From positions 1 to 64,000 of the forward strand of contig JAJYEQ010000005.1 of assembly GCA_021785695.1 (NCBI GenBank): a stretch of 64,000 nt of DNA, written 5' to 3'. Shown piece by piece: positions 11,541 to 31,678 of the stretch (position 1 is its first letter; the number at the start of each line of letters is the position of its first letter). Under the pieces are notes generated by a model. That model did no database searches. It saw nothing but the letters and a program-made list of their open reading frames with translations, and was not told the DNA's origin. Source of the stretch: Actinomycetes bacterium. GTDB taxonomy: Bacteria; Actinomycetota; Acidimicrobiia; Acidimicrobiales; RAAP-2. A program made the translations under genes and the position numbers.

Positions 11541-12539
11541 ATGCCTGAGAACGTCGTGTCACCCCCGGGGACGGCATCCGCGCGCGTGGTCGAGCGCCGG
11601 CTGGGCGTCACCATCCCCTTCGATGGCGTGTCGCTGTCCGAGCACCGCGGCTGGTTCGCCCGCCTGGCCGACCTGGGCTACACCGACGTGTGGTCGAGCG
11701 AGGTCGACGGGTCCGACGGGTTCACGCCGCTGGCCCTGGCCGCAGCCTGGGAGCCCCGCCTGCAGCTGGGACTCGCCATCGCCCCGGTGTTCACGCGGGG
11801 TCCCGCGCTGCTCGCCATGTCGATCGCCGCCCTGGCCGAGGTGGCCGGCGACCGCCTGACTGTCGGCCTGGGAGCCTCCAGCGCCCCGGTGGTCGAGCGC
11901 TGGAACGGCATTCCCTATCAGCACCCCTACGCACGCACCCGCGACGTGCTCCACGTCGTCCAGCGCGCCCTGGCCGGTGAGCGGATCGACGAGGAGCTCG
12001 AGACCCTCACCGTGCGCGGCTTCCGGCTCAGCCGCCCCGTGACCACGCGTCCTCGCCTGATCCTGGGGGCGCTGCGGCCCGGCATGCTGCACCTGGCCCG
12101 CGACGAGGCCGACGGGGCGGTGCTCAACTGGCTCAGCGCCAGCGACGTCACCCGCGTGCGCCAGGAGCTGGGCGACGCCTTCGTCGCCGCGCGGCTCTTC
12201 GTGATCCCGACCGCCGACGCCGAGCGCGCCCGGACCCTGGCACGACGCATGATCGCCGCGTACCTGACGGTTCCGGCCTACGCCGACTTCCACCGCTGGC
12301 TCGGGCGGGGGCCCCAGCTCGAGGCCATGTGGGCCGCCTGGGCCGCGGGCGACCGGGCCGGGGCCAACGCCGCCATCCCCGACGAGGTGGTCGACGAGCT
12401 GATCATCCACGGCCCGGCCGAAGCCTGCCGGGAGCACATCGCGCGCTACCAGGACGCCGGCGTCGACGCCGCGGTGCTGGCGATCCTCTCGCCGCCCGAC
12501 GAGCTGGCCGAGGCCGTCGCCCGGCTGGCCCCGCGCTGA
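11541..12539 (+). CDS. LLM-class F420-dependent oxidoreductase
   Basis: LGVTIPFDGVSLSEHRGWFARLADLGYTDVWSSEVDGSDGFTPLALAAAWEPRLQLGLAIAPVFTRGPALLAMS, luciferase-like TIM-barrel pattern; GGAGG upstream. Confidence 0.85.
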   Translation: MPENVVSPPGTASARVVERRLGVTIPFDGVSLSEHRGWFARLADLGYTDVWSSEVDGSDGFTPLALAAAWEPRLQLGLAIAPVFTRGPALLAMSIAALAEVAGDRLTVGLGASSAPVVERWNGIPYQHPYARTRDVLHVVQRALAGERIDEELETLTVRGFRLSRPVTTRPRLILGALRPGMLHLARDEADGAVLNWLSASDVTRVRQELGDAFVAARLFVIPTADAERARTLARRMIAAYLTVPAYADFHRWLGRGPQLEAMWAAWAAGDRAGANAAIPDEVVDELIIHGPAEACREHIARYQDAGVDAAVLAILSPPDELAEAVARLAPR

Positions 12540-12577
12540 GGGCGCTCAGCCTTCCTACACTGGCGGGGGAGGTGGAC

Positions 12578-13096
12578 ATGGCTGAGGGCGAGCGCCAGGA
12601 GCACGCGAGCGTGCGCATCGGGGTGGTCGACACGATGTTCGCGCGCTACGACATGGGAGCGGCCGCGCGCGCCGAGCTGGCCGAGTGCCCGGGCCACGGC
12701 GAGGACTTCGTGGTCGTCTCGCGCACCGTGCCCGGCTTCAAGGACCTCGCCGTGGCGGCCAAGCAGCTCATCGAGCGCGACGGCTGCGCCATCGTGGTCG
12801 CCCTGGGGATGCCGGGACGCGCCCCGATCGACAAGCAGTGCGCCCACGAGGCCTCCCAGGGCATCATGCAGGCCCAGCTCATGACCTCGACGCCCATCTT
12901 GGAGGTCTTCGTGCACGAGGACGAGGCCGACGACCCGGCCGTCCTGGCCCAGGTCTTCGAGAACCGCTCGCGCCGCCACGCCCGCAACGCCTACTGGATG
13001 CTCTTTGAGCCCGAGCAGCTCCAGCGCCGCGCCGGCCAGGGCGTGCGTCAGGGCTTCGCCGACGCCGGGCCGCTGCGGGTGGGCGAACTTCAGTAG
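12578..13096 (+). CDS. Riboflavin synthase, archaeal (RibC) type
   Basis: GVVDTMFARYDMGAAA...SRTVPGFKDLAVAAKQLIERDGCAIVVALGMPGRAPIDKQCAHEASQGIMQAQLMTSTPILEVFVHEDEAD...GQGVRQGFADAGPLR is collinear with archaeal riboflavin synthases, not with the bacterial two-repeat RibE. Confidence 0.85.
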   Translation: MAEGERQEHASVRIGVVDTMFARYDMGAAARAELAECPGHGEDFVVVSRTVPGFKDLAVAAKQLIERDGCAIVVALGMPGRAPIDKQCAHEASQGIMQAQLMTSTPILEVFVHEDEADDPAVLAQVFENRSRRHARNAYWMLFEPEQLQRRAGQGVRQGFADAGPLRVGELQ

Positions 13097-13156: not shown

Positions 13157-14365
13157 ATGCCAGAAGCCGTGATCGTCGCCACCGGCCGCAGCCCCATTGG
13201 ACGCGCCTTCAAGGGGTCGCTCGTTGACGTGCGACCCGATGACCTGACCGCTCACGTGGTGCGCGAGGTCCTGGCCAAGGTCCCCCAGCTCGACCCGACC
13301 ACGATCGAGGACGTCATCGTCGGCTGCGGCGAGCCCGCGGGCGAGTCCGGGTTCAACCTGGCACGCGTGGTCGCGATCCTCGCGGGCCTCGATCGCGTTC
13401 CCGGCGTCACGGTGAACCGCTACTGCTCCTCGTCGCTCCAGGCGATCCGCATGGCGGCCCACGCCATCCGGGCCGGCGAGGGCGACGTCTTCGTGGCCGC
13501 CGGCGTCGAGACCGTCTCGCGCTTCGGCAACGGCACCGCCGACTTGCCGGCCGCCATGAACCCGCTGTTCGCCGCGGCCACGGCCCGCTCGGCGGCGCGC
13601 GCCAGCGCGCCGGGCGATCCCTGGACCGCGGCCGCCGGCCTGCCCGACGTCTACATCGCCATGGGCCAGACGGCCGAGAACGTCGCCGAGCTCGAGGGCG
13701 TCTCGCGCGCCGAGATGGACGCGTACGCGCTGCGCAGCCAGGAGCTGGCCGTGGCCAGCCAGTCCAACGGCTTCTTCGAGCGCGAGATCATCCCGGTCAC
13801 CCTCGCCGACGGGCGCGTGGTGAACCGCGACGATGGCCCCCGCGCCGACACCAGCCTGGAGAAGCTGGCCAGCCTGGCCCCGGTGTTCAAGCCGGGAGGA
13901 TCAGTCACGGCGGGCAACAGCTGCCCCCTCAACGACGGCGCCGCGGCGGTCATCGTGATGAGCGACACCCGCGCCCGCGAGCTCGGGATCACTCCCCTGG
14001 CCCGCATCGTCGCCAGCGGCGTGAGCGCCCTGAACCCCGAGATCATGGGCCTGGGGCCGGTGGACGCGTCCCGCCAGGCGCTGGCCCGCGCCGGCCTGAC
14101 CATGGACCAGATCGACCTGGTCGAGATCAACGAGGCCTTCGCGGCCCAGGTCCTGCCCAGTGCGCGCCAGCTCGGCATCCCGCTCGAGAAGCTCAACGTC
14201 AATGGCGGCGCCATCGCGCTGGGCCACCCCTTCGGCATGACCGGCGCGCGCATCATGACCACGCTGCTCAACGGCCTCGAGGACCGCGGCGCGCGCTACG
14301 GCCTCGAAACGATGTGCGTGGGCGGGGGCCAGGGCATGGCCATGATCGTCGAGCGGCTCAGCTAG
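13157..14365 (+). CDS. Thiolase / acetyl-CoA C-acyltransferase
   Basis: TVNRYCSSSLQAIRMAA, NEAFAAQVLPSARQLG, NVNGGAIALGHPFGMTGARI, CVGGGQGMAMIVE. Confidence 0.92.
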   Translation: MPEAVIVATGRSPIGRAFKGSLVDVRPDDLTAHVVREVLAKVPQLDPTTIEDVIVGCGEPAGESGFNLARVVAILAGLDRVPGVTVNRYCSSSLQAIRMAAHAIRAGEGDVFVAAGVETVSRFGNGTADLPAAMNPLFAAATARSAARASAPGDPWTAAAGLPDVYIAMGQTAENVAELEGVSRAEMDAYALRSQELAVASQSNGFFEREIIPVTLADGRVVNRDDGPRADTSLEKLASLAPVFKPGGSVTAGNSCPLNDGAAAVIVMSDTRARELGITPLARIVASGVSALNPEIMGLGPVDASRQALARAGLTMDQIDLVEINEAFAAQVLPSARQLGIPLEKLNVNGGAIALGHPFGMTGARIMTTLLNGLEDRGARYGLETMCVGGGQGMAMIVERLS

Positions 14366-30763: not shown

Positions 30764-31678
30764 GTGATTACGGTCCTGAGCGGCGGGGTGGGTGCGGCCC
30801 GCCTGCTGCGCGTGCTCGCTGCGCACGTCCCAGCGACGGACCTGACCGCCGTCGTCAACGTCGGAGACGACTTCTGCCTCCACGGCCTGACGATCTGCCC
30901 CGATCTCGACACTGTGACCTACACCCTGGCGGGTCGCCACGACGAGGCCCAGGGCTGGGGGCTGCGCGACGAGAGCTGGCGCGTCATGGACGAGCTGGCC
31001 CACCTCGGCGGCCCGACGTGGTTCCGTCTGGGTGACCGCGACCTGGCCACCCACCTCTATCGCAGCCAGCGCCTGGCCGAGGGGGCCACCAAGTCCCAGG
31101 TGAGCGCGGAGATCGCCCGCGCCCACGGCGTGGACGTGCGCGTGCTGCCCGCGAGCGACGACCCGATCGCCACGACCCTCACGACCGCGCAGGGCGAGCT
31201 GGGGTTCCAGGAGTACTTCGTCCAGCACCACCACCAGGTCCCGGTGACCGCGATCGCGTACCGGGGGGCGCTCACCGCGGCGCCCGGGCCCGGCGTGGCC
31301 GACGCCATCGAGGGCGCCGACCGCGTCGTGCTGGCTCCCTCCAACCCCCTGCTCTCGCTGGCCCCCATCCTGGCGGTGCCCGGGGTCCGGGCCGCCCTGG
31401 CGGCCCGGCGCGGTCCGAGCGTCGCCGTCAGCCCCCTGGTGGGCGGGCGGGCCCTCAAGGGCCCGGCCGATCGCCTCCTCGAGGAGCTGGGCCACGACGC
31501 GGGCAGCCGGGGCGTGGCCGCCCTCTACGGCGACCTCGTGGACACCTGGGTGATCGACGAGGCCGACGCCGGCGATGCGGGGGACCTGCGCACCCAGGGC
31601 TACGAGGTCCGCGTCACGTCCACGGTGATGGGCGAGCCGGGCCGCGACGCCCGCCTGGCCGCGGCGGTGCTGGCGTGA
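30764..31678 (+). CDS. cofD: 2-phospho-L-lactate transferase (F420 biosynthesis)
   Basis: VLSGGVGAARLLRVL, VVNVGDDFCLHGLTICPDLDTVTYTLAG, SNPLLSLAPILAVPGVR. Confidence 0.93.
   Translation: MITVLSGGVGAARLLRVLAAHVPATDLTAVVNVGDDFCLHGLTICPDLDTVTYTLAGRHDEAQGWGLRDESWRVMDELAHLGGPTWFRLGDRDLATHLYRSQRLAEGATKSQVSAEIARAHGVDVRVLPASDDPIATTLTTAQGELGFQEYFVQHHHQVPVTAIAYRGALTAAPGPGVADAIEGADRVVLAPSNPLLSLAPILAVPGVRAALAARRGPSVAVSPLVGGRALKGPADRLLEELGHDAGSRGVAALYGDLVDTWVIDEADAGDAGDLRTQGYEVRVTSTVMGEPGRDARLAAAVLA

Follow-up and report, generated by a model that had tools for sequence, protein, structure and literature searches.

An archaeal-type riboflavin synthase has very probably displaced the bacterial enzyme in a clade of Acidimicrobiales

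An archaeal-type riboflavin synthase, RibE2, has been described from the rosB cluster of the roseoflavin producers S. davaonensis and S. berlinensis, where it is an additional synthase and has been ascribed to horizontal transfer (PMC11039241, which cites Jankowitsch 2012 on the transfer and Kissling 2020 on the role of RibE2). Our plasmid search for relatives of the gene described here returned a single match, to a synthase of the same type encoded on the linear plasmid NZ_CP115301 of Streptomyces camelliae (TIGR01506, 163.2 bits). The gene lies beside ribX and rosB in a cluster that looks like a roseoflavin-type one (L144:7342-14618; ribA, gamma-glutamyltransferase, archaeal-type ribC, ribX, and rosB), and its product is 58 to 68% identical to the Acidimicrobiales proteins versus 50% to RibC of M. 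jannaschii. We found no report of an archaeal-type enzyme as the sole riboflavin synthase in Acidimicrobiales or in a bacterial clade, in a literature search outside which most subscription papers lay. The riboflavin synthases of haloarchaea have been stated to be related to the M. jannaschii enzyme (PMC3403918). This statement sits badly with the result for Haloferax volcanii, used here as a control genome, which matched the bacterial RibE family PF00677 and not the archaeal model TIGR01506, the mirror image of the exchange described below.

The window, by which we mean the whole stretch of 64,000 nucleotides that was analyzed, contains an archaeal-type ribC and the following features relevant to it.

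11541-12539, forward strand: LLM-class F420-dependent oxidoreductase, 332 aa, upstream neighbor (TIGR03841, 296.5 bits, cut-off 213.65; PF00296)
12561-12577, forward strand: likely ribosome-binding site region, GGAGG-type, directly 5' of the ribC ATG (tggcgggggaggtggacATG / tggcgggggaggtggac, then ATG), as read from the sequence
12578-13096, forward strand: ribC, archaeal-type (TIGR01506) riboflavin synthase, 172 aa (TIGR01506, phmmer, AlphaFold2, purifying selection)
13157-14365, forward strand: acetyl-CoA C-acetyltransferase (thiolase), downstream neighbor (NF005890, 680.5 bits, cut-off 580)
30767-31669, forward strand: CofD/FbiA, F420 biosynthesis, context only (TIGR01819, 305.6 bits, cut-off 257.45)

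Translation of the window gives a ribC open reading frame that starts with ATG and ends with TAG, and the motifs that the initial annotation had quoted for its product are all present in it, letter for letter. The oxidoreductase stop at 12539 leaves a gap of 38 nt before ribC, the same distance as had been reported. In codon comparisons, dN/dS was ∼0.07 to 0.13 against seven nearer relatives and 0.33 against one distant relative, which marks ribC as a real gene under purifying selection. The nearest named contig, JAKAUQ010000021 (L133), is 90.7% identical in DNA across 10.5 kb around the gene. No FMN riboswitch was found at the gathering threshold in the window or in the rib operon of the same genome.

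Membership in the archaeal RibC family over the full length of the protein, as the initial annotation had proposed, was borne out by both of the tests that it had named as able to refute it. The model TIGR01506 (ribC_arch) matched residues 14 to 166 along model positions 2 to 151 of 151 with 180.8 bits (E value, 1.5e-53; curated cut-off, 100.55 bits), whereas the lumazine synthase model TIGR00114 gave 28.8 bits, below its cut-off of 84.6, and was thus not the better match. The Pfam search found a single family in the protein, the superfamily model PF00885 (60 bits), and none of the Lum_binding repeats (PF00677) of bacterial RibE. The best solved relatives were M. jannaschii RibC and constructs derived from it (2b98; phmmer E value, 2.6e-50). 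An AlphaFold2 model built from 42 aligned relatives (pLDDT, 85; pTM, 0.80) superposed on 2b98/2b99 with a TM score of 0.94 (by target length) at 1.5 Å, with 54% identity to 2b98, versus ∼0.75 at ∼3.3 Å, with 22 to 25% identity, for the best lumazine synthases. Across M. jannaschii and eight bacterial RibC rows, 51 alignment columns were invariant, including DT, TVPG-KDL, CAH-AS, EVFV, and AG-G-RQG-D-GP. We also built a tree of 18 RibC proteins from Acidimicrobiales, RibC of M. jannaschii as the sole archaeal row, the Streptomyces camelliae protein, and 11 RibH proteins. All RibC rows split from the RibH rows at 100/100, which places our protein with M. jannaschii RibC and apart from bacterial RibH; branching within the RibC part was mostly without resolution.

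The genome that carries the window measures 1.77 Mb and is 92.6% complete, and at that completeness it contained no match to bacterial RibE (PF00677) anywhere. Because the genome is only 92.6% complete, the absence of RibE from the genus leans also on its genus mates, in which RibE was found in 0 of 5 genomes that are 96 to 97% complete. A typical, separate RibH (170.7 bits) is encoded on contig 22, in the order fmt-rpe-ribD-ribBA-ribH, the gene names being assigned by inspection and from homologues in other genomes. There, ribD and ribBA overlap by 4 nt, and the operon therefore has no space for ribE.

The same division runs through the order. Among 199 Acidimicrobiales genomes, 32 carried RibC, 129 carried RibE, and none carried both (hypergeometric P, 9e-18, uncorrected for kinship, so that related genomes enter it although they are not independent). 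The exclusion is strengthened by the wide distribution of RibC, which occurred in at least eleven family-level groups, and by family f101, where one genus had RibC and other genera had RibE. In the family of our genome, 56 of 61 members had RibC, and a single member had RibE above the cut-off. This member, G620, has both synthases. The rib operon of this genome is a usual one that lacks ribE; RibE is encoded on a different contig, beside a very divergent ribBA piece, and is probably foreign or misbinned. Operon structure followed the same lines. In five Acidimicrobiales genomes with RibE, the ribE gene lay between ribD and ribBA; in two more it was followed by ribBA, and ribD was undetected. 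No ribE was found in the rib operons of 16 other RibC genomes, in which the gap from ribD to ribBA was at most ∼250 nt, one of these regions beginning at ribBA with the slot outside its view. All 18 RibC genomes tested for RibH were positive. Thus, the displacement of bacterial RibE that had been put forward as a possibility is borne out by the absence of RibE in the genome, the empty operon slot, and the mutual exclusion over 199 genomes. We consider nonorthologous displacement of ribE well supported by the exclusion and the empty slot, with G620 as one doubtful exception.

Some Acidimicrobiales genomes had neither synthase (G031, G265, G424, G553, and about 30 more, single-contig ones included). 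Since 34 of 37 such genomes also lacked RibH, riboflavin auxotrophy is likely in them and is probably common in Acidimicrobiales; the same count disfavors a third, different synthase. Among the best 80 RibC loci in a contig search, most titles named Acidimicrobiales, Acidimicrobiaceae, or Actinomycetes, and a few named Acidobacteria, which may be misnamed MAGs. Many of these 80 loci appear, from their record names, to come from bogs and palsas.

To describe the history of the gene, we used trees of rpoB and RibBA. In the rpoB tree, all sampled RibC genomes fell within a single 22-genome clade (99/97), together with the RibE genomes of f101 and G081. Monophyly of the RibC genomes alone was rejected (P = 0.003), and four changes were needed. 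The outer branches of Acidimicrobiales encode RibE in typical bacterial operons. A branch of the RibBA tree (91/93) separates the RibC genomes from all others, and the f101 RibE genomes lay apart from their RibC-bearing family mate. These f101 RibE genomes (L190, L191, and L192) have a whole ribD-ribE-ribBA-ribH operon. It is possible that f101 reacquired a bacterial rib operon, which remains a suggestion because the AU test of the f101 placement was not significant (P = 0.127). The pattern in the trees is what one early gain of RibC, followed by later regain of the bacterial rib operon, would give, but several separate gains may account for it as well.

RibC is naturally read as having been acquired from archaea. 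Because the tree holds one archaeal RibC, both origin and direction rest on what is known of the distribution of the family among archaea. Viral contigs contained no RibC relatives and phages gave no match, and we therefore see no sign of a phage carrier. A more specific scenario, which we put forward only tentatively, is that an early ancestor in Acidimicrobiales captured an archaeal RibC once and thereby lost RibE for the whole clade, that f101 and G081 later regained a complete bacterial ribD-E-BA-H operon, and that the Streptomyces RibE2 came from the actinobacterial pool and not straight from archaea.

Riboflavin and F420 share the precursor 5-amino-6-ribitylaminouracil, and the initial annotation had taken the neighborhood of ribC as a coherent F420 context. 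The shared precursor is sound biochemistry, and both the LLM-class neighbor and a CofD/FbiA gene are present in the window, but the context is weaker than had been claimed. An LLM homologue lay near ribC at no fewer than 29 of 133 ribC loci, a subset made up of close relatives, and the thiolase at no fewer than 30 of the 133, again in near relatives; both counts are lower bounds, as the flanks are unequal and many are short. Since the LLM neighbor is conserved in nearby relatives only, the link to F420 is weak, and the adjacency of ribC and the oxidoreductase is local synteny. No rib operon genes were found near ribC at Acidimicrobiales loci within reach of the flanks.

Several other readings of the gene deserve consideration. 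The shared superfamily (PF00885, 60 bits), the weak TIGR00114 score of 28.8 bits, and structural matches that included lumazine synthase folds might point to a diverged second lumazine synthase (RibH2-like) and not a riboflavin synthase. However, TIGR00114 stays below its cut-off and TIGR01506 lies well above its own, RibC and RibH rows part at 100/100, and the gene is confined, among the 199 genomes, to those without RibE; a standard RibH is already in the rib operon, and the genome would then be without any riboflavin synthase. We consider this identity extremely improbable. It is also very unlikely that RibC is an accessory synthase, serving a flavin-type secondary metabolite or F420 supply in place of housekeeping. 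The Streptomyces RibE2 in its rosB cluster (PMC11039241) offers a model for such a role, and ribC does adjoin an F420-dependent oxidoreductase, but no second riboflavin synthase was found in this genome or in nearly all of its family, and the LLM neighbor is not conserved across RibC loci.

The origin of the gene can be questioned in the same way. The wide occurrence of RibC, in at least eleven families that share one rpoB clade, could mean that the gene is ancient in bacteria and has disappeared from other lineages, with no gain by transfer within Acidimicrobiales. We give this very little credence, since the outer branches of the order have RibE in the usual bacterial operons, and no RibC scored above the cut-off outside the order in 398 genomes of the phylum or 198 of the class, nor was any full-length match seen there. 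One actinobacterial MAG (G256, contig 309; L013) carries a 46-residue RibC C-terminal fragment at the end of a contig with 29% GC, which is probably a contaminant.

Our preferred reading, which we hold with high confidence, is that ribC encodes a working archaeal-type riboflavin synthase, the only one found in this genome, and that it was gained by horizontal transfer in an ancestor within Acidimicrobiales, took the place of RibE, and from then on passed mainly by vertical descent. We infer the riboflavin synthase activity from the family. RibC would dismutate 6,7-dimethyl-8-ribityllumazine, two molecules of which would yield riboflavin and 5-amino-6-ribitylaminouracil, and the latter product may return to RibH or pass to the F420 branch. 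RibD, RibBA, and RibH form the ordinary bacterial remainder of the pathway, encoded in one operon without ribE on another contig. Homology with M. jannaschii RibC predicts that the protein assembles into a pentamer whose active sites lie at the subunit interfaces.

If this reading is correct, the enzyme for an essential step of vitamin B2 synthesis, the last one, was swapped for an unrelated enzyme, apparently across domains, and the swap became fixed over many families. The old ribE gene is cleanly gone from the operon, which makes this a well-sampled natural case of nonorthologous displacement. In B. subtilis-type bacteria, the RibE trimer sits inside the RibH capsid; RibC is itself a RibH relative and cannot be presumed to be enclosed in this capsid, which raises a question of enzyme organization. 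It is important to note that annotation pipelines demanding RibE would mislabel bacteria with RibC as riboflavin auxotrophs.

Among the known systems, archaeal RibC (M. jannaschii; PDB 2b98/2b99) has 55% identity to the Acidimicrobiales protein over the full length and the same fold at 1.5 Å. The differences are the host, here a bacterium whose RibBA, RibD, and RibH are of the bacterial type, and a short N-terminal extension of ∼12 residues. Lumazine synthase RibH (TIGR00114, PF00885) has the superfamily and general fold in common with RibC, but RibC scores below the TIGR00114 cut-off, lies 3.3 Å apart in fold, and forms a separate clade. Bacterial RibE (PF00677), a two-repeat beta-barrel trimer, catalyzes the same reaction with an unrelated fold. 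The Streptomyces RibE2 is likewise an archaeal-type synthase in an actinobacterium; however, it is an extra synthase in an antibiotic cluster, whereas the Acidimicrobiales RibC is the only synthase found.
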